Part shown: in pieces, positions 6,938 through 32,697 of the stretch | How the letters are laid out: every line of letters starts with the position of its first letter | Numbering within the stretch: the first letter of the stretch is position 1 | Assembly: GCA_027028005.1 (NCBI GenBank) | Contig: JALVKE010000133.1 | Location: 1 to 37,378 of the forward strand | Source of the DNA: Persephonella sp. | Lineage (GTDB): Bacteria > Aquificota > Aquificia > Aquificales > Hydrogenothermaceae | Direction: 5' to 3' | Length of the DNA: 37,378 nt | Translations under genes and position numbers: made by a program | Notes under the pieces: generated by a model | What the model was told of the DNA's origin: nothing | Database searches by the model: none | Seen by the model: the letters and a program-made list of their open reading frames with translations, nothing else

Positions 6938-7429
6938 TTATGGACATTCCATTGTATGTGGAACTTTATTTAGATTTTTTAGGAATGTTTTAAAAGGTCC
7001 CATATTTCTCATAGCTTCAATTTTAGAACCTTTAAAAGTCATTTTTGTCATTATTCCCATTCCCATAAATCCAAATTCTCCTTTTGCTAGAGACTTCCAG
7101 TTTTTATCTGTAGCATACATAAGAAAATCTGGTTTTTCTTTTGTAGCTTTTCCACCATAAATGCATATTGCTTTTCCATCTTTTGGAGCAATATGGAGCT
7201 CAACAGCCTTCTCAGGCCCACCACAGTCCTGTCTATAAAATCTTATAATTCTATATCCTTTTTTTCCAGCTTTTTTAGCCCATTTAGCAAGGCCTTCTGT
7301 AAGCTCTGGAGTTTTATTCCAAAGTTCACAAAACTCTTTTGCATACTCTTCATCCATAAATTTTGGAGTTGCAAAGGAAAAACTAATTACTAAAAGTAGT
7401 ACTGAAAAGACTACTAAAACTTTTTTCAT
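6938..7429 (-). CDS. Exported SCP2-like (sterol-carrier-fold) protein
   Basis: 163 residues with a clear signal peptide (MKKVLVVFSVLLLVISFSFA, cleavage near residue 20). The mature part resembles SCP2-type lipid-binding domains: ICIYGGKA, then LMYATDKNWKSLAKGEFGFMGMG, KMTFKGSK and a final helix MGPFKTFLKNL. Cysteines at CELW, DCGG, ICIY and the ultimate ECP are present. SCP2-fold proteins bind hydrophobic ligands; a periplasmic version is less usual. It lies 21 bases after a FadL-type channel in the same direction, suggesting the pair moves a hydrophobic compound across the envelope. The ligand is unknown. ATG at 7429 has AGGAGG upstream. Confidence 0.65.
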   Translation of the reverse strand: MKKVLVVFSVLLLVISFSFATPKFMDEEYAKEFCELWNKTPELTEGLAKWAKKAGKKGYRIIRFYRQDCGGPEKAVELHIAPKDGKAICIYGGKATKEKPDFLMYATDKNWKSLAKGEFGFMGMGIMTKMTFKGSKIEAMRNMGPFKTFLKNLNKVPHTMECP

Positions 7430-7450
7430 CTTTAAACCTCCTAAAATATA

Positions 7451-8770
7451 TTAAAAGTTCCAATCTAAAGATACAGCAATAGAATCTTGAGAGTTTTTAG
7501 CTCCAGCTACTAAAGCACCACCCATTGCAGTTGATTCAACTTTTTTCTCGAAAGCATGAACATAGGATGCATTAACAGCAAAGTGATTTGTAAAGTGATA
7601 ACCAAAACCAAACGTTATATGATGTTCTGTAATAGCTGGAAAACCTATAAGATTAAACCAAGCTATATTGTAATCAGGGAAAGGAGCTGCGAAGTCAGGA
7701 ATAGAGTTTGCATTTGCAACATTTAAGTTATCCTCTTCATCTATAGGAGATTTTCCATAATTGTAACCTGCTCTAATAGCAAGTCTAGGAGTTACCATAT
7801 ATTCTCCACCTACAGCTATTACAATCTGATCATCCCATTTAAACTGTTTATATCCGTCTGCATCTGACCAGTTTATCCATCTAACATCTAATCCAACTTT
7901 TAAAGCAGGAATAGGTCTCCATCCAATACCTATAGAAGCTTCCTGTGGTTGTTCAAGTTTTAAGTCCTCAAACTTTCCATCATTATTTGAATCAAAAACA
8001 TTCTTATATTTCATTTTTACACTAGATTGGTAGTATGCACCTAAACATATGTTTGGAAGGGGTTTATAATTCATACCAATAGAAGCACCTATACCATAAG
8101 CCTGAGATTGTCCTCCTCCTGCATTCCAGAATGTTCCAGGAACACCATCTCCATCTCTATCATATGCCATTTCAGCACCTAAATCTAAAGATCCCCATGC
8201 CAGATGAAGTGCACCACCTATAGCTAATTTATCATTAACTTTATATCCAACTGCTGGAACAATTCTCATAAACTGTAGTGAAGTATGCATCTTACCTAAG
8301 CCATTATGATACTTTCCATCAGGACCTAGCATTAATTGTTTAGATCTATAATCTACACCCATACCTGATACACCATAAGCTCCAAGACCAATAACAACTT
8401 TATCATTTATCTGATTTGTAATAGCTATCTCAGGAATAGTAAAAGTATCAGCATCAGATGTTATATAACCTGTATCCGTTGGAACAACTCCACCAGCTGT
8501 TGTATCATCAGTATCAAAAAAACCCTTAGATCTAGCTTTTACATGAGGAAGGAATAAAATGCCACCAAAACTTATGTTAAAACCTTCTTGTCTAGCAAGC
8601 CATCCAGGATTTCTAAAAATAGAGTCTGTAGGTTCTAGACATATACCTGTTCCAAGTCCACCCATAGCTCTTGATGCAGGGGATACCCCTATCATATTAT
8701 CTCCATTTGTAGCAAAAGCTGATGCTACCACAGCCCCAGAAGTAATTATCGCGCCTATTAGTTTCTTCAT
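7451..8770 (-). CDS. OmpP1/FadL/TodX-family outer-membrane channel
   Basis: 439 residues from the ATG at 8770, chosen because AGGAGG lies 6 bases upstream, within an in-frame TTG-started extension. The signal peptide is MKKLIGAIITSGAVVASAFA. The mature N-terminus NGDNMIGVSPASRAMGGLGTGI is the FadL-type plug (NGD/NPA region), followed by DSIFRNPGWLAR. The rest alternates as beta strands and ends in an aromatic strand, SLDWNF. FadL proteins admit long-chain fatty acids, aromatic hydrocarbons or other hydrophobic solutes. In a sulfur-metabolising organism elemental sulfur is one conceivable cargo, but this is speculation. Followed by the SCP2-like gene. Confidence 0.88.
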   Translation of the reverse strand: MKKLIGAIITSGAVVASAFATNGDNMIGVSPASRAMGGLGTGICLEPTDSIFRNPGWLARQEGFNISFGGILFLPHVKARSKGFFDTDDTTAGGVVPTDTGYITSDADTFTIPEIAITNQINDKVVIGLGAYGVSGMGVDYRSKQLMLGPDGKYHNGLGKMHTSLQFMRIVPAVGYKVNDKLAIGGALHLAWGSLDLGAEMAYDRDGDGVPGTFWNAGGGQSQAYGIGASIGMNYKPLPNICLGAYYQSSVKMKYKNVFDSNNDGKFEDLKLEQPQEASIGIGWRPIPALKVGLDVRWINWSDADGYKQFKWDDQIVIAVGGEYMVTPRLAIRAGYNYGKSPIDEEDNLNVANANSIPDFAAPFPDYNIAWFNLIGFPAITEHHITFGFGYHFTNHFAVNASYVHAFEKKVESTAMGGALVAGAKNSQDSIAVSLDWNF

Positions 8771-8822
8771 AATAAACCTCCTATACAAAAAACATATTTT
8801 ATATTATTCTATAAAAAATCAT

Positions 8823-8879: not shown

Positions 8880-9968
8880 TTACTCTCCAAGCTGTAATAG
8901 ATCCCTTATTTCATCTTCAAGTTGCCTACATCTTGGGCATACAGTTGAGTCACCCTTATAAGAAAATGGAACAAGACACTCTTCGCAGGCTATCATTACA
9001 TGTTCAGCTAAAACTTTAACTTCATATAAAAATGTTTTTATATTAAGTTTTTCAGAAAGATGAAGACAGTCCTCAGGACATACCTCATGACAGATTCTGC
9101 ATTTAATACACAAAGATGGTTCAAAAAGGATTTTAAGTCTTTCTTCTCCAGGTTTAAGGGCAGATGTTGGACATATGTTATAACAGATAGAGCAGTTTGT
9201 ACATTTGTAATTATCAATCCATTTATCAGAGGTAAAAGAGATTTTATCCACGAGAACTTCTTTATCTGAGTAATCAATATCTTTTTCTTTAAGAGCTTCT
9301 AAAAGGGCTATTCTTTTTTTAGGTAAAACCTTTTCTTGAACAATATTTTTAGGTTCTGTTCTTTCCTCTGTTTCTAATATATCTACTTTTGGCATTAAAG
9401 TCCAAAAAGCTAAACCTGCAGTAGTTTTACCAAGATTTTTTAAGAAGCTTCTCCTTTCTTCAACCTTTTTTTCTTCCTCTTTTACTTCAAACTTTATTTC
9501 TTTTTCTTTTATTCCATATGGCCATTGTATCTGCTCTAAAAAATAGTTTGCTTCATCTATATTTTCTTTTATTTTTTCATGTAAAGTTCCGACCTCACAC
9601 TCACTACAGTATCCTGTATCTATAACAATATCCTCTTCATTTTTTAATGCTAAAGAAATTAAGTATTGAGGATCAAAAACTGTTGCACAGGGAACATTTT
9701 TTCTACATGAGATAAGAGAATCCTTATCATTAATCATCTTTCTATAAATATCTTCTACGGAGAAACCCCTTAAAGAGAAAGCTTCTGTTGGACAAACTCC
9801 TACACAGGCTCCACAAGACACACAAGTTTCAGGGTTAACCTTTATTTTATCGTCTTCATAAATAACAGTACCTTCTACAGGACATATATCTACACATTTT
9901 TGACAGGAGCTATCTTTAAAATATACATGGGTACAGTCGTAAAAATTAAGATGTATTCTTTTTGACAT
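8880..9968 (-). CDS. Multi-cluster 4Fe-4S ferredoxin-type protein with internal twin-arginine-like segment
   Basis: 362 residues. N-terminal half: cysteines 12, 22, 25, 29 and C49-x2-C52-x2-C55-x3-C59-P (two 4Fe-4S clusters), then four more cysteines (88, 94, 121, 124). The middle has EERRSFLKNLG (172-180) followed by the hydrophobic TTAGLAFWTLMP, resembling a Tat signal but internal. C-terminal half: C256-x2-C259-x2-C262-x3-C266-P and C287-x2-C290-x2-C293-x3-C297-P, then paired CxxC motifs (328/331, 344/347) like a zinc or rubredoxin-type site. It follows torD by 11 bases and probably serves electron transfer or cofactor assembly for the Mo enzymes. No specific named family is recognised. 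Confidence 0.75.
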   Translation of the reverse strand: MSKRIHLNFYDCTHVYFKDSSCQKCVDICPVEGTVIYEDDKIKVNPETCVSCGACVGVCPTEAFSLRGFSVEDIYRKMINDKDSLISCRKNVPCATVFDPQYLISLALKNEEDIVIDTGYCSECEVGTLHEKIKENIDEANYFLEQIQWPYGIKEKEIKFEVKEEEKKVEERRSFLKNLGKTTAGLAFWTLMPKVDILETEERTEPKNIVQEKVLPKKRIALLEALKEKDIDYSDKEVLVDKISFTSDKWIDNYKCTNCSICYNICPTSALKPGEERLKILFEPSLCIKCRICHEVCPEDCLHLSEKLNIKTFLYEVKVLAEHVMIACEECLVPFSYKGDSTVCPRCRQLEDEIRDLLQLGE

Positions 9969-9979
9969 TTTAATTCACC

Positions 9980-10615
9980 TTAAACAGTTTGCTCTTCTAA
10001 TATTTCTGAAAGATAATCATAATCAGACATTATAAATTCAGCTCCTAACTCACAAACATCATAGTAAAAGGGTGTTTCTGCTATATCCCTTGCCGCTAAA
10101 AGATATATAGGTCCCCAGTTTGCAAGATGTTCCTCTAAAAATTTCTTCTGAAGTTGTCTAAGTCTTCTAACCTCTAGCTCATTTTCTTTTGCCATTGCAT
10201 TTAGTTCTTCCTGAGCAATATTCATCATAAACTCCATCTCTATTGCGATATGGTCTGGGGATAAAGCTCTTGTTTTTTCCATATCTATCTCATATCCATG
10301 CTGATGGTAAAACATGATAGTTGGGTTTGTTATTGATGCATTTATATATCCTTCATCATTCATGAAAACTGATTCGTAAGGATAAACATTTATAAGAAAA
10401 ACAGTTGTAAAGTCAGGGTTCAAATCTTCTTCTATAAGTTTAACAGTATCTTTTTTATGAAGAAGATCCCATTCTTTTGTGTTAGGGAATAAATCCAGAA
10501 GGTCTGGCGTATTCTTTATTTTTTCTAGTGTTGCAAAATCAACTTCTTCTATAAGAAGTCTTGATAATAGTCCATACATATTTATTCTTGCCTGTGTTTC
10601 TTCAATAGTTCCCAT
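9980..10615 (-). CDS. TorD/DmsD-family molybdoenzyme maturation chaperone
   Basis: 211 residues, all-helical, with the family signature SPDHIAIEMEFM (near residue 119) and the C-terminal pattern FLEEHLANWGP...FYYDVCELGAEFI. Such chaperones bind the twin-arginine signal and apoprotein of a DMSO-reductase-family enzyme until bis-MGD is inserted. It lies downstream of the 1094-residue catalytic subunit, separated by 177 bases with hairpins. As the only TorD-like gene in the window, it may serve either or both Mo enzymes. ATG at 10615 with AAGAGGT upstream. Confidence 0.88.
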   Translation of the reverse strand: MGTIEETQARINMYGLLSRLLIEEVDFATLEKIKNTPDLLDLFPNTKEWDLLHKKDTVKLIEEDLNPDFTTVFLINVYPYESVFMNDEGYINASITNPTIMFYHQHGYEIDMEKTRALSPDHIAIEMEFMMNIAQEELNAMAKENELEVRRLRQLQKKFLEEHLANWGPIYLLAARDIAETPFYYDVCELGAEFIMSDYDYLSEILEEQTV

Positions 10616-10727
10616 TTCTTACCTCTTTTAGATTATTAAAATTAGAAAAAATATATAGAAAGGTTTTATTTTTAATTAGGAGAAAAAAACTTATGCAAAG
10701 ATTATTAGATAAACAACACTTTTTCAT

Positions 10728-10786
10728 CTCACTAATAAAAGGCAATTTTTATCACCCTTTATTAGTGAGGGGGCCTTAAGCCCCCC
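10728..10786 (-). other. Tandem intercistronic hairpins between the Mo catalytic gene and torD
   Basis: Directly after the catalytic-subunit stop a GC-rich hairpin (GGGGGC/GCCCCC around 10769-10785) is followed by a 12-base perfect stem, CTCACTAATAAA (10728-10739) with TTTATTAGTGAG (10758-10769), enclosing 18 bases. No U-run follows either on the minus strand, so a partial terminator or mRNA-stabilising element that lowers torD relative to the enzyme is more likely than full termination. The remaining bases to torD hold only a weak possible promoter. Confidence 0.6.
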
Positions 10787-10792
10787 TTTAAG

Positions 10793-13700
10793 TTATTCTT
10801 CTGAATGTCCTTCTTCAGCACAAGGCATTCTATAAGATTTGTCTGTATGTGGATACCAAGGTCTTGGGAACCATTTAGGTCTTCTTAAACAGTTAGGTCC
10901 TGGAGCTGGTCTTGTAAGTCTATCTCTCCATCCTTGGTATACCTTAAATGTTGCTTCTGTATCAACAAATACATCTCCTATCCTATCCTCAGGACCACCT
11001 TTCTCTACGAGAACTTTTTTGTGCCAGCAATGCATTCCTGAAAGAGGATCTGGATTAGCAGGGAATACTGAGTTTTGCCATACTCCAGTAGCTCCATTCC
11101 ACCATACTTCCTTAATGTCTTTATTTATCTCAGGATAAGGCCATTTTAACCATTTTTCAGAATGTTCTCTTTCCACTTCGTGAGGCCAAACACCTCTCTT
11201 CCATCTAATAGCCCACTTATGACCTTTATTTTTCATATCAGCTAAAGCTGATGCATACGTTAAAATAGTTAAAGGTTGATCAAATCCTTCCACTTCAACA
11301 CTGTTTACAAGTCTCCATCTTCCAGAGTGGTGGGAGCAAGCAAGAACTCCTGGTCTTGTAGCCTGAGTAGGCATAGCCATTCCAACAAAGTACCCTGTTT
11401 TAATTCCTGTTAATGAGTCTACAACCCAAACTTTTATAGGGTCTCCTCTCTTAATACCTAGTTTCTTAGCATCCCCTTCATAAATCCATACAGGATTATG
11501 GTTCTGAGAGATTTCCATAAGCCATTTTGAGTTTGCAGAACGAGTGTGAATATTGTAAGGAAGTCTAAAGATTGGATTAAGAGCAAACGCATTCTCTTCT
11601 TCCATATAGCTATGGTGTACGTGAGAGAGAATATGTATAAGCTTCTTTCTATCGGCTTCATCTTTTGGATATATAGGTATTGCATATTCAGGCCAGTTCC
11701 ACTCAACAAATGTTTTAGAGTAAAACTCTAAATGTCCTGTTGGTGTATGCCATCCTACTAAGAACTTACCATCTTTCTTAACAGCTATAGTATGTCTTTC
11801 TGAATGATATTTATCTGCAACATGATGTTTTAGATAAACTGCACCTGTATCTGGATCAATTTCACACTCATCAAGGGAAATCCATTTTCCTTTTACCTTT
11901 ATAGCATTCTTATCTGGATCATAAGGTACTTCTCTTTCATGGACATTGTAAACATTAGTTTCCTCAGTCCATGCTCCTCTATCTCTCATATACTCATAAG
12001 GTGTTGTTCCAAGTTCCTCACAGATTTTCTTAAGGTTTGGAAGTGTAGAGAAAGCAGCGTTATACCATTCTTCTATAGTTACTGGTCTTCCTGGATGTTT
12101 TTTAGATTCCCAGTACTTTCTTATACCAAGTTTTCCATCAGGATCTATAGCCCATGCAAGATTAATCCAGAACTCATTTTCTTCCCAGACCTCACCAAGA
12201 CCAGCTTTTATATGAGCTTCTAACGTAGCTCTCCATGGAACTTTTGGTCTCCATCCCATTTTCATTAATGTTACTCTTAAAACAGGCTGTCTAAATGCAG
12301 TCCATCTTTCTGGTTTTGTTTCTGCTGACTGGTTATCGTGTCTCTCTCCAGCTAATCCAACAGGTAGGATATAATCAACATGCCAGTTTGTCTCAGACCA
12401 CATAGGAGAGAGGTTTACAGTAAGCTCCATTTTACTTTCATCTCTTAATACTTCTATCCATCTAAAACCATCAGGATTTATCCAAACAGGGTTATATATC
12501 TTAGATATCCATACTCTTAATTTTCCTGGTATTTTAAGGCCTCTTCTAGCCCATTTTTCTCTCCACTGATCATCAGAGAGAAGGTGAGGAAGTAAGAATG
12601 AAAGTTCATATGTAGATAAAGGCCACTCTGGAGGCCATAAAAGTTCATTCCAGTCATCTACAGGTTTTGGTTTTTTACCTATAGTAGCATCGTACCCTTT
12701 TCCACCTACTCCTAAAACATGCCAGTGGTGCCAGCCTACTCCACCAATTCCACCTATTGAACCTGTAAGAGCTAAGAAGAATAGACCTGCTCTACCTGCA
12801 TTCATCCATCCACCACGGTTCCCTGCAGCTTGAGCTCTCCAGAAGTAAGAAGTAATTCTATCCCCAGCCCAGAGAACAAGCTCATACAGTTTTTCTATCC
12901 TATCTAAAGGAACTTTTGTTTCTTCAGCAGCCCATTCAAATGTATAAGGAGCGTATATCTGTTTTAAAACAGATATAAAGTCTTCAAATGTTTCTCCTTC
13001 AGGAATTTCCTGTATTCTTCCTTCTAGCTTTAAATATTTTAGATACTCTTTGTCTTTTATAAATGTTTTCCAGTTAAACCATCTTTCCACAAATTTTCTG
13101 TTGTACTTATCTTCTTGCAAAAGTCTATTTGCTAAAGCTAAGTATATGGCTCCTTCTGTTCCAGGCCATATAGGAAGCCATAAATCAGCCATACCTGCTG
13201 AGTTTGAAAGTCTTGGATCCATAACAACAAGCTTAGCTCCTTTAGCTCTAGCATCAGCAATATAACCTGCATGCTGTTGAAAGTAGTGACCTGCGTCTGC
13301 AGCATGAGAAGACGCTAAGAAAATTAATCTTGAATTTGCAAAGTCTGGAGATGTTCTATCATCTCCTGTCCATGAGATGGAACCTAATCTACCACCTGCA
13401 GAACATATATTCGTATGAGAGTTATGATGATCACCACCCCACGTCCAGACAACCCTTGCAGTGAAACCACCAGATTCATTAGGTCTTCCTACATGGTACA
13501 TTATCATCTTTCTTTCAAATTCAGAACCTTTCTCTAGTGTTTCTCTTATCTTTTTACCAATAGTTTCTAAAGCCTCATCCCACGTTGTTCTAACCCATTT
13601 TCCTTCTCCTCTTTTTGAGCCAGGAGCTCTTTTTAGAGGGAATGGGATTCTATCTGGATCATACATCTGAGATAATGATGCGTATCCTTTTGCACAGTTC

Positions 13701-14077
13701 CTACCTCTAGATCCTGAGTGGAAAGGGTTACCCATAAATTTTTTAACAGTTAAACTGTCTTTATCTACCCAAGCTGTTAAACCACAAGCAGCTTCACAGT
13801 TGTTACAGACTGTTGGAACAATCATATAGTTTATTAGCTTGACACCATCTCTTAGAGCACCACCATGTTTCTTCCAGTAGTCCCCATCTGGTTCCTGCCA
13901 GTTTTCCCATTTTTCAAAAGGAGGATAATAATCTAAATGGCTTGGAGTAAATGTTAACTCTGTTTTTGTTTCTTCATTTGAAGATGCTATAGACTTTTCT
14001 ACAACACCTTTTGCTAAAGCAGCTCCACCTATTGTTGCTGCTATTCCTTTTAAGAAGTTTCTTCTTGATGTTCTCAT
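10793..14077 (-). CDS. Tat-exported molybdopterin oxidoreductase catalytic subunit (sulfur/polysulfide/tetrathionate reductase-like)
   Basis: 1094 residues, DMSO-reductase family. The Tat signal RRNFLKG starts at residue 5. The FS0 4Fe-4S motif is C91-x2-C94-x3-C98-x29-C128. Cys225 in NICSAGGRLGS is the likely Mo ligand; then LIFLASSHAAD, VVMDPRLSNSAG and LWLPIWPGTEGA are bis-MGD-binding segments. The C-terminal MopB domain includes LACSHHSGRW and NPVWI. With the FeS and NrfD genes immediately upstream in B-C-A order it forms a membrane-bound, periplasm-facing complex exchanging electrons with quinone. Family relatives include PsrA, TtrA, ArrA, the Aquifex sulfur reductase SreA and SoeA; the Tat signal argues against cytoplasmic SoeA. 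A sulfur-compound substrate is inferred from context. Confidence 0.85.
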   Translation of the reverse strand: MRTSRRNFLKGIAATIGGAALAKGVVEKSIASSNEETKTELTFTPSHLDYYPPFEKWENWQEPDGDYWKKHGGALRDGVKLINYMIVPTVCNNCEAACGLTAWVDKDSLTVKKFMGNPFHSGSRGRNCAKGYASLSQMYDPDRIPFPLKRAPGSKRGEGKWVRTTWDEALETIGKKIRETLEKGSEFERKMIMYHVGRPNESGGFTARVVWTWGGDHHNSHTNICSAGGRLGSISWTGDDRTSPDFANSRLIFLASSHAADAGHYFQQHAGYIADARAKGAKLVVMDPRLSNSAGMADLWLPIWPGTEGAIYLALANRLLQEDKYNRKFVERWFNWKTFIKDKEYLKYLKLEGRIQEIPEGETFEDFISVLKQIYAPYTFEWAAEETKVPLDRIEKLYELVLWAGDRITSYFWRAQAAGNRGGWMNAGRAGLFFLALTGSIGGIGGVGWHHWHVLGVGGKGYDATIGKKPKPVDDWNELLWPPEWPLSTYELSFLLPHLLSDDQWREKWARRGLKIPGKLRVWISKIYNPVWINPDGFRWIEVLRDESKMELTVNLSPMWSETNWHVDYILPVGLAGERHDNQSAETKPERWTAFRQPVLRVTLMKMGWRPKVPWRATLEAHIKAGLGEVWEENEFWINLAWAIDPDGKLGIRKYWESKKHPGRPVTIEEWYNAAFSTLPNLKKICEELGTTPYEYMRDRGAWTEETNVYNVHEREVPYDPDKNAIKVKGKWISLDECEIDPDTGAVYLKHHVADKYHSERHTIAVKKDGKFLVGWHTPTGHLEFYSKTFVEWNWPEYAIPIYPKDEADRKKLIHILSHVHHSYMEEENAFALNPIFRLPYNIHTRSANSKWLMEISQNHNPVWIYEGDAKKLGIKRGDPIKVWVVDSLTGIKTGYFVGMAMPTQATRPGVLACSHHSGRWRLVNSVEVEGFDQPLTILTYASALADMKNKGHKWAIRWKRGVWPHEVEREHSEKWLKWPYPEINKDIKEVWWNGATGVWQNSVFPANPDPLSGMHCWHKKVLVEKGGPEDRIGDVFVDTEATFKVYQGWRDRLTRPAPGPNCLRRPKWFPRPWYPHTDKSYRMPCAEEGHSEE

Positions 14078-14096
14078 TTATGCTACCCTCCTATTA

Positions 14097-14981
14097 TTAA
14101 CTTAATGGTAAGCATTGAGGAGCTATTAGCCACGCATGTTTAATAAGCCATAAGCCTATCAATGCAAATACAGAACCGTATAAAGCGTATCTATATCTTC
14201 TTTTTTGAATAGCAATTCCAACAAAAGCCATTGGAAGAATAAATGCAAAAACCATTCCTAGCCAGAAGAATGGAGCAACTTCTCCAAATGCTAAAATCTC
14301 TATCACCCTATGAGCAAATTCACTGTGCATTTTTGCAAAGAATAACTCCCCTATGAACATAGCAGCTAGAAGACCTGCACTACCAAAAAGTATGTAACCT
14401 AACTCTCTTCTTACTTTTTCGCTAAGAGGATTCTTAAAAATAGCATCTACAATTAAATATGCTGCTGAACCTGCTAGTAATGCGCTAAGAAGCATTGAAA
14501 TCATTTCAGCTGGGAATACCCAAACTTCTCTACCTGTTGATTCACCCATAATTCCAGCTGTATATATTGTGGAGAAAAATGCCAGAATAAAACCTGGAAT
14601 CATAATCTTATCAAGTAGTTGTCTTTTTCCTGTAACCCATGACCAAAAAGCTATAAGTAAAACAATTACAAATGCTGAAACAACCCAAGCACCTAAAGTA
14701 ACTGCTGAAGTAAAGTGTGGGTGCGCAAATATATGCCAAAATCTAAACATATGATGTAGATCTAAAACTGTTACTAAAAGTGTTATACCAATAAAGATAA
14801 TACCTAAAATAGGTAACCATTTTCTAAAAAATCTATCTTGATCAGGATATTTTTTAATGAAATAAATTCCTAAGAAAAAAGAACCTGTTGCTATACTTTT
14901 TGCCCACATATTTGTAGAAACTAGCCACCCCCAAACTACTTTTGGGAGAGCTACATCAAAAGTTACTTCTGCTCCCAACAT
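14097..14981 (-). CDS. NrfD/PsrC-type membrane subunit
   Basis: 294 residues with about eight transmembrane segments, the NrfD/PsrC arrangement of two four-helix bundles. It begins VVWGWLVSTNMWAKSIATGSFFLG, typical of the quinone-site helices, and includes DLHHMFRFWHIFAHPHFTSAVTLGAW with several histidines and HRVIEILAFGE later. It anchors the Mo complex and exchanges electrons and protons with quinone; NrfD proteins usually carry no haem. It starts 2 bases from the FeS-subunit stop, with its AGGAGGG site inside that gene, and is 19 bases from the catalytic gene. Confidence 0.9.
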   Translation of the reverse strand: MLGAEVTFDVALPKVVWGWLVSTNMWAKSIATGSFFLGIYFIKKYPDQDRFFRKWLPILGIIFIGITLLVTVLDLHHMFRFWHIFAHPHFTSAVTLGAWVVSAFVIVLLIAFWSWVTGKRQLLDKIMIPGFILAFFSTIYTAGIMGESTGREVWVFPAEMISMLLSALLAGSAAYLIVDAIFKNPLSEKVRRELGYILFGSAGLLAAMFIGELFFAKMHSEFAHRVIEILAFGEVAPFFWLGMVFAFILPMAFVGIAIQKRRYRYALYGSVFALIGLWLIKHAWLIAPQCLPLS

Positions 14982-14983
14982 GA

Positions 14984-15619
14984 TTAATGCCCTCCTATGT
15001 GGTCTAAGAACTTAACTTCTGTAAATAATGTAAATCCTTCAGGTCTCTCAGAAGCTAATGGATCTAATGCTACTGTAGAACCTCTTACATAGAAATGTTT
15101 TGGATGAGTATTTAATTCAGGTTTTCTAACCATAACATCTCTATGAGATTTTAAGTATTTAGAAATCTCTGATTCTGGGTCGTCGAGATCTCCGAATATA
15201 TTTGCATGAGTTGGACATGCAACAACACAAGCAGGCATTAAACCAACTTCAATTCTGTGTGCACAGTAAGTACATTTATCTGCTGAATTTGTTAATGGAT
15301 CAAGATATATAGCATTGTATGGACAAGCCATCATACATGAAGCACAACCAATACATCTGTCATGATCCACATTAACAATACCATTAGGTAGATAGTGAAG
15401 TGCAGAAACAGGACAGATCCTTTCACATGGTGCATTTTCACAGTGATTGCATCTTAAAGGAACAAAATGTCTCTTTACATCTGGGAACTCTCCTTGGTCT
15501 ATATATTTGACCCTAAGTCTCCAGCTGTGAAGAGGAACGTTGTTTTCTGCCTTACAAGCAACAGCACAGGCCATACAACCCATACATCTACTCAGGTCTA
15601 CCAAGAAACCTAATCTCAT
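14984..15619 (-). CDS. DmsB/PsrB-type 4x[4Fe-4S] electron-transfer subunit
   Basis: 211 residues with the four-cluster pattern of DmsB/PsrB/TtrB subunits: SRCMGCMACAVACKAEN, CNHCENAPCERICPVSAL, DRCIGCASCMMACPYNAI and CTYCAHRIEVGLMPACVVACP. It transfers electrons between the Mo catalytic subunit and the NrfD membrane subunit. It has no signal peptide of its own, so it presumably crosses the membrane with the Tat-bearing catalytic subunit. Its ATG at 15619 has a GGAGGG site. It opens the second Mo module and is preceded by a hairpin that separates it from the first. Confidence 0.92.
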   Translation of the reverse strand: MRLGFLVDLSRCMGCMACAVACKAENNVPLHSWRLRVKYIDQGEFPDVKRHFVPLRCNHCENAPCERICPVSALHYLPNGIVNVDHDRCIGCASCMMACPYNAIYLDPLTNSADKCTYCAHRIEVGLMPACVVACPTHANIFGDLDDPESEISKYLKSHRDVMVRKPELNTHPKHFYVRGSTVALDPLASERPEGFTLFTEVKFLDHIGGH

Positions 15620-15654
15620 GGAAATCCCTCCTAAAAGTATTTACCAAGCAAAAT

Positions 15655-15674
15655 AAGGGAGCATAAGCTCCCTT
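15655..15674 (-). other. Hairpin at the boundary of the two Mo-enzyme modules
   Basis: AAGGGAGC and GCTCCCTT form a perfect 8-base stem with an ATAA/TTAT loop. On the minus strand ATTTTG follows, a poor U-tract, so it may be a leaky terminator or a processing/stability element. Confidence 0.55.
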
Positions 15675-15681
15675 TATAATA

Positions 15682-16161
15682 TTATAAACAACCTTTGAAG
15701 AAACCTGGCTTTGGTTTTGGCGTAATTTCAAATTCTGTAAATTTAATAACAACTATATCTCCTTTCTTTCCAACGGGAACAGCTGTTCCATCTATACTTC
15801 CACCAAATCCTTCTAAAAGGTCAGACCAGTAAACACCATCCTTTGTAGGCTTTACATAAAAGTACTCACCTTCGGTAACATCAAATATAACAATTTTTGG
15901 ATTTTCATCATATATATCTTTCACTCCTTCCCAAGCTGCGTGGGGAGGACATGAGGATAAAACATCAAATGTTCCTTTTTCCTCCGCCTCTTTAGCACAG
16001 GATACAGCTGTTATAACAGCTGAAGTAAACTCTAATTCCTCTTCTTCCTCCTCTTCTTCTACTGTCGCTTGTTCTTCAGCATAAACATAAGAAGTATAGC
16101 CTACAGTAGATAGAAGAAAAGCAAGACTCAGTATAGACGCAAATATTTTCTTTATTCTCAT
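15682..16161 (-). CDS. Exported acidic protein ending Gly-Cys-Leu, unknown family
   Basis: 159 residues, not recognised. A signal peptide (MRIKKIFASILSLAFLLSTV..., cleavage after YVYA near residue 28) is followed by an acidic run (residues 35-44). The folded part has Cys55 and Cys71 (SSCPPHAAWEGV), beta-rich segments (KIVIFDVTEGEYFYVKP, GDIVVIKFTEFEI) and a proline-rich tail TPKPKPGFFKGCL with penultimate Cys158. The tail resembles in layout the DsrC/TusE carrier arm (Pro-rich, then Gly-Cys-aliphatic), and the rhodanese-like protein at 21576-22076 also ends Gly-Cys-Leu. It follows the gamma subunit by 13 bases. A sulfur-carrier or assembly role for the type II enzyme is inference. Confidence 0.75.
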   Translation of the reverse strand: MRIKKIFASILSLAFLLSTVGYTSYVYAEEQATVEEEEEEEELEFTSAVITAVSCAKEAEEKGTFDVLSSCPPHAAWEGVKDIYDENPKIVIFDVTEGEYFYVKPTKDGVYWSDLLEGFGGSIDGTAVPVGKKGDIVVIKFTEFEITPKPKPGFFKGCL

Positions 16162-16174
16162 CTTTTAACCTCCA

Positions 16175-17371
16175 TTATTTAAAATTCTTCCAGTTTAGCA
16201 GAGTTTTTAAATAAGCAACAATATCATTAATTTCTTGAGGTTTTAGATGAACAAATGCAGGCATTTTAGACTGTTTTTTGCCATTTGTTTCTATATACCA
16301 CTGATACATCGTGTTGTTTGGATACGCATTAAACTTATCAGGATTAGATTTCATATAGTGCCTGTTAATATTTAGATTTCTAATAATAACATCATTAGGA
16401 TCAACAATTGATTCTTTTAAATATACTGCATTAGCTATTCCACCAATATCAGATAAATTCGGTGCTAATCCTGCAGGTGCCGTTTGAAACTCTCCTGCTC
16501 TGTGACACCCAATACATCCATTCTGTTGGAATAATTTTTTCCCTCTTTCTGGATTTCCTATATCTTTTCCTTTTTCTTTCCAGTCTGCATATGGACCACC
16601 CCAGGAAACATAAGCAAGATACTTCTTGTCTAGTTTATACTTTCCTAGTCTGATAAATTTCCATCTTGAAAGGGATTTGTTTCCATCTCTTTCATATTTG
16701 TTCCCGTCCCACACAGCAAAAGCTATGGGAACAAGACCTGCTTTAAGATTTGAATTTTCTGTTTTTAAAGGTCTTTTAAATACTGCATACCACTCTTTAT
16801 TCTTTGTGTCATATTTCATTACAATGTTAACGCTTTTTTCCTTTGTCTCAGTTAGAGAACCAAATCCTTTTGATATAAATGTTTTCTGATAATCTCTTCC
16901 TGCTACATTTTTTTGAAGATAAACGGTAACAGGATGATTTTCATCTCCCATTCCAACGTATGGAAGGGATATGCCTTTACCGAACTTATTAGGAAACTCA
17001 ATACTTACTCCATCAGCAAATTGATTTGTTGTTAAAGGAGGTTGTAAAGAAGGAGTAATATCTTTCCATCTTATATAAACAGCTATATTTTTTCCGTTAT
17101 ATGCTGCCTTCACTGTTGCTTTAACAGCTTCTTTTTCAGGTATAAGTTCATTTGCTTTTTTATCGTTTAATCTAACAGATACTTGCGGATATAGAGTTAT
17201 CTCAGTTCCCTTTGCTTTTTCCCATATTTTAGCATTTGGATCTGAAGGTATATCTTTTGATGTATATAAAGCATTAATAACTTCATACTTAAAAAAACCT
17301 TTATCAGCAGCTACAGCAGATATAGACAGAGTAGATAGAGCTAATATAGCTGCTTTTAGAGTTCTTTTCAT
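16175..17371 (-). CDS. Gamma subunit of type II molybdoenzyme: haem-b domain fused to cytochrome c
   Basis: 398 residues with an N-terminal signal peptide (MKRTLKAAILALSTLSISAVAA). Residues about 30-255 resemble the EbdC/DdhC/SerC haem-b subunit: DGVSIEFP, then LPYVGMGDENHPV with Met141 as likely axial haem ligand, and WYAVFKRPLKT with a candidate Lys ligand (Lys199). Residues about 270-395 form a class I cytochrome c: NPERGKKLFQQNGCIGCH (CxxCH 286-290), GLAPNLSDIG and the Met-ligand segment SKMPAF (Met370). Classical ethylbenzene dehydrogenase, DMS dehydrogenase and selenate reductase gamma subunits are about 210-240 residues without the fused cytochrome. The fusion would pass electrons directly from haem b to a c-type chain in the periplasm. 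Confidence 0.85.
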   Translation of the reverse strand: MKRTLKAAILALSTLSISAVAADKGFFKYEVINALYTSKDIPSDPNAKIWEKAKGTEITLYPQVSVRLNDKKANELIPEKEAVKATVKAAYNGKNIAVYIRWKDITPSLQPPLTTNQFADGVSIEFPNKFGKGISLPYVGMGDENHPVTVYLQKNVAGRDYQKTFISKGFGSLTETKEKSVNIVMKYDTKNKEWYAVFKRPLKTENSNLKAGLVPIAFAVWDGNKYERDGNKSLSRWKFIRLGKYKLDKKYLAYVSWGGPYADWKEKGKDIGNPERGKKLFQQNGCIGCHRAGEFQTAPAGLAPNLSDIGGIANAVYLKESIVDPNDVIIRNLNINRHYMKSNPDKFNAYPNNTMYQWYIETNGKKQSKMPAFVHLKPQEINDIVAYLKTLLNWKNFK

Positions 17372-17408
17372 TTATCTTTCCTCCTTAGTTGTTCTTTTGT
17401 TAAAAAGA

Positions 17409-17421
17409 GGGAGGGACTCCC
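17409..17421 (-). other. Small hairpin between beta and gamma genes
   Basis: GGGAG and CTCCC pair around GGA in the 54-base gap between the beta stop and the gamma ATG. It has no U-tract in the direction of transcription; it is weak alone but fits the pattern of hairpins at junctions in this cluster. Confidence 0.35.
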
Positions 17422-17425
17422 GATT

Positions 17426-18595
17426 TTAATGATGTCCCTCTTTTTCTTTCTCTTCTTTCATAGCTGGTTGTGTTTCAAAGTAAACTTTTCCATAGATACC
17501 TTCAACTTTAGGTGTGTTTGCACCTTGAACATATCTCTCATCTATTATTCTAAAGTATTCAGAACCTTTTAATCCTTGTTCTGCTGCAATTTTTTCATAG
17601 TACTTATGGTCTAATCTGAACATATCAGCATGGTTGTAAGCTATAAGAATATCCATTAACTCAGATTCTTCTCCCCTTTCTCTCTTTGCCATCTCTTCCT
17701 TAAGGGTTTTTATAGCCTGATGGACTTCAGGTCCAAAGAGCTTTTCAAGATACTCCATAGGAATTCTTTCTTCACTTTCTATAGGCTTTCCTTCATCATC
17801 AAATTTAGGTGGAGCAATAACTGGTGGAACGTAGTAAACGTTAGGCTGTGTTCCAAAATCAGGTCTAAGAGGAAGAGCTACTTTGTATTTGTGAACAAGT
17901 TTATAAACCTGTGATTCTTCATCATCAAGGAAACCTACAAATCTAATTCTTCCTACACACTGATGAGCACATGCCGGAGGAAGACCTTTTTCAATTCTAG
18001 GGAAGCAGAATATACATTTTTCTGATTTAGAAAGTTTAGGGTTAAAGTAGATCTTCTTATAAGGACAACCTGCAATACAGTATCTGTATCCCTGACATCT
18101 ATCAAGATCAACAAGAACAATTCCATCCTGTTCTCTTTTGAATATAGCTTCCCTTGGACATGCAGCTAAACAGCCAGGGTTTGAACAGTGATTACATATT
18201 CTTGGTATATAGAAGTAGTAAGAGTTTGGCCAATCTCCTATACCAACATCCTCATCCCAGTTTGGACCCCAAACAGGATCAGAATCTGGAGATAGGACAA
18301 ACTCATCTGCAGGAGAATTAAATATCTCATCGTGATTATAATCCCAAGGCACTCCATAGTCTAAAACCATATCAGGTATTATTCCATCTTTTAAGTTTCC
18401 TTGCTCGTCAAAACCTCCACCTGCTTCCATCCAGTTTCTTGGATAACCTACGCCAGGATGAGTTTCAACGTTGTTCCAGTACATATACTCTCTTCCATTT
18501 CTGTTTGTCCACTGGGTTTTACATGCTACCGTACACGTTTGGCAGCCAATACATTTATTTAAATCCATTACCATTGCTAATTGTCTTTTAGCCAT
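17426..18595 (-). CDS. Beta (iron-sulfur) subunit of type II molybdoenzyme, NarH/EbdB-like
   Basis: 389 residues. Cluster motifs: C15-x2-C18-x2-C21-x3-C25; C134-x2-C137-x4-C142-x3-C146-P; C167-x2-Tyr170-x2-C173-x3-C177-P; and C194-x2-C197-x11-C209-x3-C213. Tyr170 replaces a cysteine, as Trp does in NarH, so that site should hold a [3Fe-4S] cluster, characteristic of type II enzymes (NarH, EbdB, DdhB, SerB, PcrB). The stretch ETHPGVGYPRNWMEAGGG is also typical of this branch. No signal peptide: it would be exported by Tat together with alpha. It sits 17 bases after alpha, with GGAGG before its ATG. It passes electrons from alpha to the gamma haem. Confidence 0.92.
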   Translation of the reverse strand: MAKRQLAMVMDLNKCIGCQTCTVACKTQWTNRNGREYMYWNNVETHPGVGYPRNWMEAGGGFDEQGNLKDGIIPDMVLDYGVPWDYNHDEIFNSPADEFVLSPDSDPVWGPNWDEDVGIGDWPNSYYFYIPRICNHCSNPGCLAACPREAIFKREQDGIVLVDLDRCQGYRYCIAGCPYKKIYFNPKLSKSEKCIFCFPRIEKGLPPACAHQCVGRIRFVGFLDDEESQVYKLVHKYKVALPLRPDFGTQPNVYYVPPVIAPPKFDDEGKPIESEERIPMEYLEKLFGPEVHQAIKTLKEEMAKRERGEESELMDILIAYNHADMFRLDHKYYEKIAAEQGLKGSEYFRIIDERYVQGANTPKVEGIYGKVYFETQPAMKEEKEKEGHH

Positions 18596-18612
18596 CTATA
18601 TAACCTCCTTAA

Positions 18613-21522
18613 TTAAGCTTTCTCTATATCTACAGTTGTTTCATAAGCATGCTGGTTACCATCCCAGTTACCTCCAAATTTAAGGTGACCCCAGCTGTCA
18701 GAAAGCTCCAGTAGATTTAGAGGTGAAGCGTTTACTGCATTGTGAGATATATTTCCTTTAAAGTAAAATGGCTCCCAACCGTGCTCTATGATAATTGCAT
18801 CTTTTGGACAAGATGGATATATCTTAGCCATGGCATAGAACTCACCAAGGTCATTAAAGATTTTTATCTCATCTCCATCTTTTATTCCTTTTTTCTTAGC
18901 AATTTCAGGGTTAATCATTACGTAAGGCTTACCTCTTTGAAGTCTCTGTAGGAGAGAAGACTCTTTGTATGTGGAGTGGATAGACCATCTTGCGTGAGGT
19001 GACATAAGAACAAACGGAAATCTCTTAGGTCTAATTGGTTCTTTTGCTGTTGGAACATTTGCTCCAAACTCTATCCATCTATCGTGGTCAACGTAGTATG
19101 TAAGTCTTCCTGATAGAGTTTCAAATCTTTCAAAGAGATATAGGTTGTTTTCAAATGAGTTGTAAGGTTTATCTGGATAAAGAGGAGATGTTTTTCCTGC
19201 CTTTTCATTTAACTGTAAGTAACCACCTCTTTTTCTCACTGTCTCTATTGTGTTTGGTTTAAACTGATCAACACTTTCAAGAGCAAGTTCTACAGCATCT
19301 CTATCTGTTCTTAAGTGTCCACCTTTTGTATACTCTTCAACAACTTTATCAAGGTCTCTGTATCCTGTTTTTGAGTGAGTTGGATCAGGTATTTTAATAT
19401 ACTTCTTATCTCCAGTTTCTTTATACTTCTTCATTGCAAGTTCTTGAAGTTTCTCAACAATCATTGTACAGATTTCCCACTCAGATTTTGACTCACCAAC
19501 AGGTTTTAGGTTTTGAGGTGGTTGTGCCATATTTGCATATCTGTGATATCCAGGGTTAGTTCTTATATCCCATACTTCATACATTGATTTCGCTGGTAAG
19601 ACAATATCTGCATACTGAGCTGTTGAGTTCATTCTCCAGTCTACATAAGCAAAGAATTTAGCTTTTTTAAGGAATGCCTCTCTATAAGTTTCACCTTTGT
19701 TTCTTCTAAATCTAGAGTCGGCAAAAATTAAGAATGTTTCAACTGTATCCCAGTAAGGTTTACCGTCTTTATTGTGGAAACTTTCTTTCCATTTTTCATC
19801 ATTTCCGTAGTTTTCAAGATCTTTTTTTACTCTCTTGAGATACTCTTCTTTAGAAAGATCTGTAGCTCTTCTTATATCTTCATCAGAGTAGAGTTTTTCA
19901 ACATCTTTTATCATATTACCTAATACATATTCTTGAACAAATCCTGAAGCAAATCTCTGCTTATACTTTCCTGCAAATCCAGAGAGTTTACCCATTCCAG
20001 ATATAGCCCATTCATTTTCCGTGTTAAATCCACCGTAAGGTCCAAGTCTTCCAACAAGACCTGGTATAGAAGCTATGGCTCTTTGAGCAAGCATACCATT
20101 GAAATATTTACCAATGGTAAATCCCATAGAGATCATAACAACTTTTGGAAGGGCTATATCTTTAGCAAGTTGTTCAACAATTGTTGGGTGAACCCCTGTT
20201 AATTTCCATGTCTTTTTAGCGTCAAACTTAGCAGCTTCTTTCTTAACAAGCTCAAAGACTGTTGTAACTTTTACCTTTTTACCATCTTTAAGAGTAACTT
20301 CCCACGTTCCCTCTAGTGCAGGATCAATATCCCAACCTACATCTTTTAGTCTGAGAGTTTTAACAGGAGCACCTTCCGTTCCAGGCATTACTGTAAGTTT
20401 ATTTGTTTTTGTATTCCATGAGAAGAAAGTAGCTTCAGGTTCAAACTCTTTTCCTTCACCTTTCATTTCGAAAATTTTAAATACATCGTGGTCAAATTCA
20501 GGTGATTTTTCAGGATCTATATCTGAAAGTCTAAGAAGTTTTTTATTGTCAAGCCTTACAAGGAATGGTAAATCTGTAAAATGTTTAACAAATTTTGGTT
20601 TATAAAGTTTCTTTTGGATAATCTCATTTATGATAGCCATAGCTAAAAAGCCATCGTATCCTGCTCTAACAGGGACCCAAAGGTCTGCATGAACACAGGA
20701 AGCATTAAAGTCTGGAGTTATTACAATGTTTTTAGCACCGTTATATTTACCTTCCCAGAGGAAGTGTGCATCAGGAATTCTTGTTTTATTAGGGTCCTGT
20801 CCCCACCATATATTTACATTTGTTGTATAGAAATAGTCGTAAGAACATCCTATATTACCTTCTCCGTATACAACTGTAACGCCAGGGAACATATCCCCAA
20901 CATAAGAAGCAATATAGTTTCTTACAGCTCCAAGAAGGGTTCCAAGCCTTTTTCCTGCTGCACCTCTTCCTTCTGTAAGCATTCCTGCTCCAACGTGAAT
21001 GAAGAGGCCTTCAGGACCTTTTGTAAGCATCGTTTCATATATGTTTTGTGCTATTTCAGTAATTGCCTCATCCCAAGTTATTCTCTTCCATTTACCTTCT
21101 CCTCTTTTACCAACCCTTTTAAGAGGATAAAGAACTCTATCTTTCTCATAAGTTACGTGGGAATGCTGAACCCCTTTATTACATCCTCTTGGATTAAAAT
21201 CTGGAATTTTTGGATTTATAGGAGTATAGTTAGCAACCTGGTTTTCTCTAGTTATTACTCCATTGTTAACCCATACGTCCCAAGCACAGTTACCCTGACA
21301 GTTTACACAGTGATAAGCTGTTCCATGATCTTCTTTTTCTCCATAGGTATAGATAAACTCATTTCTATACATATTCTCTGTATAAGAAGTATTAGGATAG
21401 CTATGTCTAGGATCTTCTACTATAACAGCATCCTGTTTAGCAAAGGCTGCATTTCCTCCAAGAGTTATACCAGCTCCACTGGCTCCAAGGGCTTTTAAGA
21501 AATCCCTTCTTGATAGTGCCAT
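18613..21522 (-). CDS. Alpha (catalytic) subunit of a type II DMSO-reductase-family molybdoenzyme
   Basis: 969 residues. Tat signal SRRDFLKALG (residues 4-13). FS0 ligands follow the type II pattern His71-x3-C75-x3-C79-x34-C114 (HCVNCQGNC ... RGCNKG). Asp210 in SYVGDMFPG aligns with the Mo-coordinating aspartate of NarG/EbdA. IPDAHFLWEGKYNGAKNIVITPD is the family's conserved pterin-binding region, and the C-terminal MopB domain contains MINPEIAKKKGIKDGDEI. With beta and gamma this is an alpha-beta-gamma periplasmic enzyme related to ethylbenzene and dimethylsulfide dehydrogenases, selenate and (per)chlorate reductases. Substrate not predictable; adjacent rhodaneses and YeeE suggest a reduced sulfur compound. 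Confidence 0.92.
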   Translation of the reverse strand: MALSRRDFLKALGASGAGITLGGNAAFAKQDAVIVEDPRHSYPNTSYTENMYRNEFIYTYGEKEDHGTAYHCVNCQGNCAWDVWVNNGVITRENQVANYTPINPKIPDFNPRGCNKGVQHSHVTYEKDRVLYPLKRVGKRGEGKWKRITWDEAITEIAQNIYETMLTKGPEGLFIHVGAGMLTEGRGAAGKRLGTLLGAVRNYIASYVGDMFPGVTVVYGEGNIGCSYDYFYTTNVNIWWGQDPNKTRIPDAHFLWEGKYNGAKNIVITPDFNASCVHADLWVPVRAGYDGFLAMAIINEIIQKKLYKPKFVKHFTDLPFLVRLDNKKLLRLSDIDPEKSPEFDHDVFKIFEMKGEGKEFEPEATFFSWNTKTNKLTVMPGTEGAPVKTLRLKDVGWDIDPALEGTWEVTLKDGKKVKVTTVFELVKKEAAKFDAKKTWKLTGVHPTIVEQLAKDIALPKVVMISMGFTIGKYFNGMLAQRAIASIPGLVGRLGPYGGFNTENEWAISGMGKLSGFAGKYKQRFASGFVQEYVLGNMIKDVEKLYSDEDIRRATDLSKEEYLKRVKKDLENYGNDEKWKESFHNKDGKPYWDTVETFLIFADSRFRRNKGETYREAFLKKAKFFAYVDWRMNSTAQYADIVLPAKSMYEVWDIRTNPGYHRYANMAQPPQNLKPVGESKSEWEICTMIVEKLQELAMKKYKETGDKKYIKIPDPTHSKTGYRDLDKVVEEYTKGGHLRTDRDAVELALESVDQFKPNTIETVRKRGGYLQLNEKAGKTSPLYPDKPYNSFENNLYLFERFETLSGRLTYYVDHDRWIEFGANVPTAKEPIRPKRFPFVLMSPHARWSIHSTYKESSLLQRLQRGKPYVMINPEIAKKKGIKDGDEIKIFNDLGEFYAMAKIYPSCPKDAIIIEHGWEPFYFKGNISHNAVNASPLNLLELSDSWGHLKFGGNWDGNQHAYETTVDIEKA

Positions 21523-21556: not shown

Positions 21557-21580
21557 TATAAAAGGTAGCTGCTTTTTATA
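21557..21580 (-). other. AT-rich hairpin between rhodanese-like and alpha genes
   Basis: TATAAAAG and CTTTTATA (with one unpaired base) pair around CAGCTAC, overlapping the stop codon of the upstream gene. It has no terminator-type U-run after it on the minus strand. Possible mRNA processing or stability element. Confidence 0.3.
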
Positions 21581-22076
21581 GACAACCGCCACCACCACCA
21601 GCTGCAGGTGGTTCATATTCTCCTTCATCTTCTGGATAACCTGCATCATCCCATGCTTCCATACCACCTTTTAAATTCTGAACAATAGTAAATTTCTTAG
21701 CACATTTTTCAAATATCTTAGGATCCCCATCTTTAGATACGATAACTGTTGGAAGATATGGATTTATATGTTTTAAAGCTTCTTTAGGTGCTTTAGATTC
21801 ATCACAGTCAGGAAGAGGAATAGCACCAGGAATATGTGCACCAGTATAGTAATCTATTTCTTCAGCTTCATCTTCCTCTTCTTCAGGAATTTCATAAGGT
21901 CTAACATCTATTATTTGAATAGTGATTTTAGGATTTCCAAGTTTTTTGTATAGTTCTTCAGCTGTTATAGGTATCTTTTTCTGAAGCTCAATTTCTGTTT
22001 TTCCAAGACCAAGGAGAACAAGAGAAAGAATACCTATAACAACTATATATAAAACTCTTTCTAATTTAGCACTCAT
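21576..22076 (-). CDS. Membrane-anchored rhodanese-like protein lacking the catalytic Cys, with Gly-run-Cys-Leu tail
   Basis: 166 residues. One N-terminal transmembrane segment (about 8-24) would place the rest in the periplasm. The rhodanese fold is marked by IQIIDVRPYE (55-62), an acidic insertion (64-73), YTGAHIPGAIPLPDC and VQNLKGGMEAWDDAGYP. The active-site loop, normally Cys-x4-Arg/Thr after a beta strand, reads VIVSKDGDP, so Ser114 replaces the sulfur-binding cysteine. Other cysteines are 91, 125 and 165; Cys165 is penultimate, after a run of five glycines (PPAAGGGGGCL). This looks like a flexible arm carrying a terminal thiol, as on SoxY (GGCGG end) or DsrC. Its ATG overlaps the preceding stop (TAATG). 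Likely a sulfur carrier or docking protein for the enzyme encoded next. Confidence 0.8.
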   Translation of the reverse strand: MSAKLERVLYIVVIGILSLVLLGLGKTEIELQKKIPITAEELYKKLGNPKITIQIIDVRPYEIPEEEEDEAEEIDYYTGAHIPGAIPLPDCDESKAPKEALKHINPYLPTVIVSKDGDPKIFEKCAKKFTIVQNLKGGMEAWDDAGYPEDEGEYEPPAAGGGGGCL

Positions 22077-22219
22077 TATTCTTCTCCTCCTTCTGTGGCT
22101 GCTTGGGAAACTTGCTGAGCTTTTTGTTCAAGCTTTGAGATATCCATTTTTACACCTATAATAGCCACAACAAGGGCAAGAATTCCTATCCACCAAAGAA
22201 TTCTTTCTATCATACTCAT
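22076..22219 (-). CDS. 47-residue single-pass membrane protein in the sulfur/Mo operon
   Basis: Short gene between the YeeE gene and the rhodanese-like gene: ATG at 22217-22219 with AGAGGTG upstream, TAA at 22076-22078 overlapping the next ATG by one base (TAATG). The protein starts MSMIERILWWIGILALVVAI, a transmembrane helix of about residues 7-23, followed by a Lys/Glu/Gln/Ala-rich amphipathic helix (DISKLEQKAQQVSQAATEGG). Coupled spacing on both sides supports expression. Not recognised; may be a small partner of the YeeE transporter or of the membrane-anchored rhodanese-like protein. Confidence 0.75.
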   Translation of the reverse strand: MSMIERILWWIGILALVVAIIGVKMDISKLEQKAQQVSQAATEGGEE

Positions 22220-22233
22220 TTTCTTCACCTCTC

Positions 22234-23361: not shown

Positions 23362-23382
23362 GACGTTACCTCCTTTTTATTG

Positions 23383-23403
23383 AAAGGGGCACTAAGCCCC
23401 TTT
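23383..23403 (-). other. Hairpin between the periplasmic rhodanese and YeeE genes
   Basis: AAAGGGGC and GCCCCTTT form a perfect 8-base stem around ACTAA. The T-run follows it only on the plus strand, where no gene needs it; in the direction of transcription it is followed by CAATAAAAA. It is probably a stability or processing element, or a partial terminator. Confidence 0.5.
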
Positions 23404-23408
23404 TTATG

Positions 23409-31926: not shown

Positions 31927-32697
31927 TTACATTTGTTCTTCTGCTTTGCTCCTTTCACTTCTTGGATATAGAATTTTAGCCATAATAATAGAGATCTCGT
32001 AGAAAATAATTAAGGGCATTGCAAGAAATATCTGACTTACAATATCAGGAGGTGTTAAAATTGCAGCCATTACAAATGCAGCAACTACAAAATAAGGTCT
32101 AAATTTTATAAGAGTGTCAGGAGTTACAAGACCAAGCCTTGCAAGAAGAGAAAGAATAACAGGTAGCTCAAAGGTTATTCCAAAGGCAAGTATAAGTCTT
32201 ACAACAAAAGATATATAAGAGCTTACAGAAATCATTGCTTCAACATCAAGCTGTGTATAACCAAATGTCAAAAGAAACTTAATAGCTAAAGGTAAAACTC
32301 CAAAGTAGGCAAATAGAGCCCCTGATATGAAAAATACTGTTGTAAATGTTACAAAAGGAACAACTAATTTTTTTTCTTCTTCGTATAAGGCAGGTTCTAT
32401 AAATTTCCATATTTGATAAAAAACATATGGAGAAGCTATAACAAAACCTACAAGCATAGCTATTTTAAAAGCTGTGAAAAAAGACTCTGTTGGTGTTAGA
32501 GCCACTAGTTTTAAATCTGGGAAAACTCTATTTAATGGTTCTTTGAATATCTTAAAGAAGAAATCTACTTTAGTAAAAACAACAACTGTTGCTATAGCTA
32601 TAGCAACTAAACTTCTAAAAAGCCTTGTTCTAAGTTCAGCTAAATGTTCTGTTATAGGAGCTTCGTATTCTTCAGGAGATTTATGTTCTTGGCTCAT
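31927..32697 (-). CDS. tatC: Twin-arginine translocase subunit TatC
   Basis: 256 residues, six transmembrane helices. Early signature ITEHLAELRTRLFRSLVAI, containing the conserved Glu and LR of the signal-binding site, then LTPTESFFTAFKIAMLVGFVIASPYVFYQIW and the central FGITFELPVI. TatC recognises RR signals such as those on both Mo catalytic subunits in this window. It overlaps tatB by 17 bases. Confidence 0.96.
   Translation of the reverse strand: MSQEHKSPEEYEAPITEHLAELRTRLFRSLVAIAIATVVVFTKVDFFFKIFKEPLNRVFPDLKLVALTPTESFFTAFKIAMLVGFVIASPYVFYQIWKFIEPALYEEEKKLVVPFVTFTTVFFISGALFAYFGVLPLAIKFLLTFGYTQLDVEAMISVSSYISFVVRLILAFGITFELPVILSLLARLGLVTPDTLIKFRPYFVVAAFVMAAILTPPDIVSQIFLAMPLIIFYEISIIMAKILYPRSERSKAEEQM

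Follow-up and report, generated by a model that had tools for sequence, protein, structure and literature searches.

Gene D and its molybdoenzyme operon

The window (the whole stretch of 37,378 nucleotides of Persephonella sp. DNA that was analysed) carries a molybdoenzyme operon on the minus strand. Its genes run in the order B (Fe-S subunit), C (NrfD type), A (molybdopterin subunit with a Tat signal), E (TorD chaperone) and D, and this order, with D last, was kept in the family loci examined. The features of the window that are relevant here are as follows.

8880-9968, minus strand: gene D, two-half polyferredoxin, 362 aa, ATG start
9771-9968, minus strand: first ferredoxin module of D, residues 1-66, eight cysteines (Pfam Fer4 families and cysteine positions)
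9531-9716, minus strand: FlpD/MvhD-like module of D, residues 85-146, extra cysteines C88, C94, C121 and C124 (PF02662 in homologues at the aligned place)
9333-9473, minus strand: linker of D, residues 166-212, predicted to be unstructured (pLDDT < 50), yet with many invariant residues
9390-9455, minus strand: RRSFLK (172-177) and a short hydrophobic tail with invariant FW, to residue 193
9057-9221, minus strand: second ferredoxin module of D, residues 250-304, eight cysteines and C301
8919-8996, minus strand: paired CxxC (zinc-ribbon-like) of D, residues 325-350 (conserved cysteine positions)
9980-10615, minus strand: gene E, chaperone of the TorD/NarJ family, upstream of D by 11 bases (PF02613, E = 1.5e-16; also matched by TorD and type II chaperone models)
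10793-14077, minus strand: gene A, molybdopterin catalytic subunit with an N-terminal Tat signal, 1094 aa (PF00384, PF04879, PF01568 and Tat models)
14097-14981, minus strand: gene C, NrfD-like membrane anchor (PF03916)
14984-15619, minus strand: gene B, Fe-S subunit of the TtrB/NrfC type with four clusters and without its own signal
18613-21522, minus strand: subunit A of a type II DMSO-reductase-like set
17426-18595, minus strand: subunit B of the same set
16175-17371, minus strand: gamma subunit of the same set, fused to cytochrome c
31927-32697: tatC
32681-33040: tatA/B-type gene

The type II DMSO-reductase-like set lies directly upstream of the B-C-A-E-D operon (region 8880-21522, minus strand; loci L039-L044), and this double molybdoenzyme arrangement, with a 159-aa gene between the sets, was kept across Hydrogenothermaceae genera. 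The conserved 159-aa protein (15682-16161, minus strand) gave no match in Pfam or NCBIfam. Upstream of the molybdoenzyme genes, the region 21576-24383 (minus strand) encodes rhodanese-domain proteins and a YeeE/YedE-type sulfur transporter, which suggest sulfur metabolism. After D, the region 6938-8788 (minus strand) encodes an outer membrane protein of the FadL/OmpP1 type and a 163-aa protein, and both genes were kept beside D in several related genomes.

The initial annotation had described RRSFLKNLG and a hydrophobic stretch at residues 172-192 between two cluster-bearing halves of D, and this description was borne out: the segment (RRSFLKNLGKTTAGLAFWTLMP) occupies residues 172-193 of the 362-aa open reading frame, the motif being internal (172-177) and not N-terminal. 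Its cysteine counts were also correct. The first half contains eight ferredoxin-type cysteines (12, 22, 25, 29, 49, 52, 55 and 59) and four extra ones (88, 94, 121 and 124), and the second half contains eight (256, 259, 262, 266, 287, 290, 293 and 297) and the pairs 328/331 and 344/347, besides which C301 was found. PF02662 (FlpD/MvhD) scored over its cut-off in the homologues L109, L115 and L119 at the place of the four extra cysteines, and the Pfam scan of D itself gave no match to this model. The four extra cysteines are probably an FlpD-like electron-transfer site, as judged from the homologous sequences. D homologues hold, like the hydrogenase/heterodisulfide reductase electron-transfer subunit FlpD/MvhD, a module with these cysteines; unlike FlpD/MvhD, the module of D sits within a polyferredoxin beside a molybdoenzyme, and the window protein itself scores too low for the model.

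Against NCBIfam, the second half of D matched generic ferredoxin families only. An AlphaFold model of D, built without cofactors, had a mean pLDDT of 73 and a pTM of 0.74, and residues 1-20 and 166-212 were below pLDDT 50 in it. Foldseek comparison of the model with the PDB gave partial ferredoxin-module matches and no full-length match. A linker that lacks structure and yet holds many invariant positions is characteristic of a binding peptide, and the modelled linker of D may be one.

Conservation of the motif, the tail and the gene context

Searching of 136 Aquificota genomes gave matches in 40, 34 of which (the window's own included) belong to the window's own family; the records of related loci were named Hydrogenothermaceae, Persephonella, Sulfurihydrogenibium and Hydrogenothermus. 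A contig scan for D loci returned Hydrogenothermaceae-type loci and one unrelated Bacteroidales match. RR was present in every aligned homologue of the window's own family. R172, R173, F175, L176, A184, F188 and W189 were invariant in a 21-sequence alignment of family homologues, and R172, R173, L176, K181, F188 and W189 in a second set of 20 sequences; F175 was invariant or nearly so across both. The initial annotation had named beforehand the conservation of RR in homologues of the same architecture as the point on which its reading could fail, and RR was conserved in them.

A profile search extended the homologues of D to other bacterial lineages of many phyla, in which the parts are in the same order and the linkers carry motifs such as LSRRSFFNFL, FSRRDFFKRL, LSRREFFGFI, SSRRGFLFGM and SSRRTFLKSA. 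Plasmid records added further members from Sulfurovum, Rhodobacter, Sulfuricella and Azoarcus. When sequences above 70% identity were removed, 61 homologues remained, and 53 of these had RRx[FLIVMY][FLIVMY] mid-protein (for L113, one of the 53, the first match of the script was elsewhere, but its linker has LSRREFFGFI). The chance rate of the motif was ca. 5.4% per sequence, as computed by shuffling the middle part of the 53 motif-bearing sequences. The eight sequences without the motif comprised four from the Aquificota family f3, two from another such family, f2, and a pair of long formate-dehydrogenase-type proteins, of which one carries the variant RRQIT. Outside the window's family the common form was [LVI]-[SG]-RR-[ED]-[FL]-[FL], and charged residues directly follow the motif in most homologues. 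At 20-29% identity, RR varied no more than the cluster cysteines did.

The hydrophobic part was distributed differently from RR. The AxLxFW segment was found only in 15 Hydrogenothermaceae-type sequences, the FW tail being absent from 38 of the 53 motif-bearing homologues, and the mean best 12-residue hydropathy was 1.33 in the 15 tail-bearing sequences versus 0.21 in the other 38, with overlapping extremes. In a maximum-likelihood tree, rooted for drawing only and with several deep branches that are long and of weak placement, the sequences with RR and tail formed one clade (100/99). The neighbour of this clade was an RR-only Campylobacterota protein (100/99), L070 being the sister without the hydrophobic part. 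The tail is most simply explained as a single, late gain on a pre-existing RR motif. On these alignments and this tree, the family-wide RR is older than the hydrophobic tail, which was added later and locally.

In the window, D adjoins the TorD-family gene, and so it does in many distant loci, together with genes for a molybdoenzyme and an Fe-S subunit. Among the RR-less Aquificota members, L117 and L118 have a molybdoenzyme and no TorD gene was found adjacent to them, and L034, L037 and L120 lie away from TorD and molybdoenzyme genes. L035 lies away from such genes too and retains RR, and no TorD gene was found near the RR-bearing L107, L108, L114 and L116. A strict link between RR and TorD is suggested by the counts without reaching significance (p = 0.10; 27 wide-context loci classified by hand). 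L108 (6400-7455) adjoins a gene whose product looks by eye like a molybdopterin-binding protein of the MoeA kind.

Alternative readings of the twin-arginine linker

The linker of D resembles a Tat signal in part. NapG/MauM-type periplasmic ferredoxins likewise have an RR motif and then a hydrophobic stretch ahead of a ferredoxin domain, but the signal of NapG is N-terminal and stronger (best 12-residue hydropathy 1.97), whereas that of D is internal and under the TAT cut-off. It was considered whether the linker in Hydrogenothermaceae is a working internal Tat signal-anchor, with the first half of D staying in the cytoplasm and the second half being carried across folded to join or feed the exported complex. 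RRSFLK fits the canonical RRxFLK consensus with invariant RR, and the segment nearly reached the cut-off of the NCBIfam TAT model TIGR01409 (16.0 of 16.7 bits), which the two true Tat signals of the window (gene A and the second molybdoenzyme) passed at 26.2 and 27.7 bits. Its best 12-residue Kyte-Doolittle mean (1.05) overlaps those of the operon's own Tat signals (1.20 and 1.66), and the Tat genes are present in the same window, so that export is conceivable for the window's own family. On the other hand, PF10518 did not match the D segment, and the TAT models did not match the linkers of three relatives outside the window's family. The hydrophobic core consists of about 11 uncharged residues ended by proline and an acidic stretch, and this run is too short to cross the membrane as a helix; the close relative L070 has the same architecture without this part; and a 171-residue cofactor domain would have to stay behind. 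Internal export is, on balance, quite improbable. The initial annotation had suggested an internal membrane-docking signal with one half on each side; the docking part of this suggestion stands, most likely with a protein and not the membrane as the partner, but the membrane topology cannot hold family-wide because distant homologues lack the hydrophobic segment.

NapG-type ferredoxins begin with RR and a hydrophobic region, and the motif of D falls precisely at the junction of its halves; the second half might accordingly descend from an independent Tat-exported ferredoxin of the NapG kind, with the motif as its fossil signal. A fossil would be expected to decay, yet RR is invariant. The late, single gain of the tail argues against such a fossil, as it does against a family-wide split topology. 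RR is accordingly not the trace of a recent fusion with a formerly Tat-exported protein, the first of the mechanisms initially proposed; distant homologues have RR and the same two halves without a comparable hydrophobic segment. Split forms, in particular a C-terminal half starting at RR, were looked for, and no genuine one was found among the 61 non-redundant sequences. The half-length match L126 runs off the end of its contig, and L147 (1002-1971) has a frameshift in the linker just before RR, which is either an assembly error or a true split, the gene of the sister genome G317 being intact. A recent fusion of two adjacent genes, the other proposal of the initial annotation, was rejected as well, the two-half architecture being common to many phyla. 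A fossil export signal is thus very improbable, while an ancient fusion with a NapF-like gene, having RR and no hydrophobic part, is possible. In one metagenome-assembled genome of 55% completeness (G093), two copies of D, L046 and L047, are broken by several stops, which may be assembly errors. Alternatively, the RR linker may be a structural or redox element within D that folds over a cluster or joins the halves and has no outside partner; RR is conserved nearly like the cysteines, also in orphan members with neither TorD nor molybdoenzyme genes nearby. This is distinctly unlikely, as residues 166-212 are below pLDDT 50, albeit in a model without cofactors, and the f3 and f2 relatives fold the same domains without RR. 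Somewhat less unlikely, but still an outside chance, is that RR contacts the Tat receptor, the membrane surface or an NrfD-type membrane subunit instead of the chaperone, D being parked at the export site without crossing. TatC recognises the RR of Tat signals, the FW tail could sit in an interface, and the membrane attachment of Wolinella NapF requires NapH according to the title of Kern and Simon 2009, a reference cited in PMC10609526; the charged residues right behind the motif in most homologues speak against such a contact.

Comparison with SreD and NapF and a candidate docking role

The reading of the linker as a docking peptide draws on two known systems. The sreABCDE operons of Acidianus ambivalens and Thermoproteus tenax encode a molybdenum subunit, an Fe-S subunit, a membrane anchor and the system-specific chaperone SreE, and SreD is a polyferredoxin without known function (PMC3189178). 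D is likewise a polyferredoxin in an operon of the same content, a likeness drawn from the published operon description, but its gene order is B-C-A-E-D. According to one survey, SreC genes occur in archaea only (PMC8076601).

NapF of E. coli, Vibrio, Azospirillum, Sinorhizobium, Agrobacterium and Cereibacter has an N-terminal RR motif and no hydrophobic region, and a NapF-like protein of Sulfuricurvum carries SRRGFF. NapF and D share the (S/G)RRx(F/L/I)L-type motif and several [4Fe-4S] motifs, and the genes of both stand together with those of an exported molybdoenzyme and of the chaperone that binds its signal. As in NapF, RR stands without a hydrophobic region in the 38 D relatives of other lineages; the window's own family has the short hydrophobic tail in addition. 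In contrast, NapF has ca. 165 residues, an N-terminal motif and four cluster motifs, whereas D has its motif mid-protein and in addition the FlpD-like part and the CxxC pair. TIGR00402 (NapF) did not appear in the 25 top-ranking matches listed for the window protein, and D relatives scored at most 44 bits on it (cut-off 102.2). NapF is reported to be cytoplasmic, to bind NapA and to be needed for the Fe-S assembly of R. sphaeroides NapA (PMC10609526). NapF offers the best analogy for the mechanism of D.

Based on these comparisons, there is about an even chance that D is a cytoplasmic polyferredoxin of the SreD kind with a NapF-like function in maturation or electron supply, whose linker is a docking peptide imitating the Tat signal of the partner enzyme. 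Before subunit A is exported by Tat, D would help to insert or reduce the Fe-S or molybdenum centres in that subunit, and the RRxF(L/F) of the linker, imitating the twin-arginine signal of A, would recruit D to the pre-export complex or to chaperone E. The AxLxFW tail gained in Hydrogenothermaceae would serve this peptide as a hydrophobic part and strengthen binding. The maturation role is moderately supported; we infer it, the cytoplasmic location and the binding partner of RR from the comparisons above.

TorD and DmsD read Tat peptides mainly via the hydrophobic and C-terminal parts, the hydrophobic part setting chaperone specificity; a change of RR to KK in the TorA signal weakens TorD binding ca. 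tenfold and alters DmsD binding little (PMC3316669). The small effect of this change on DmsD, the RR-bearing members near which no TorD gene was found and the p value of 0.10 count against the docking reading. It also has to be set against E. coli NapF, the double arginine of which is reportedly non-essential for NapF-dependent growth. It is possible, though rather doubtful, that D represents a broad and apparently undescribed family of molybdoenzyme-associated polyferredoxins, in which an internal imitation of a Tat signal (RRxFF) takes up or passes on the site where TorD-family chaperones or the Tat receptor bind signals and so links Fe-S/Mo loading to the release of the enzyme for export.

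The linker motif of D is real and unexpectedly deeply conserved, and it is better read as a putative family-wide docking motif of SreD/NapF-like accessory ferredoxins than as an export signal or fusion scar. RR is conserved in lineages whose protein has no usable export signal, and an RR motif in such ferredoxins alone does not imply export. SreD-type polyferredoxins and NapF are accessory proteins whose function is unclear, and the Tat-like RR shared by NapF and the SreD-like D may provide a handle on how Fe-S/Mo loading is coupled to Tat proofreading.
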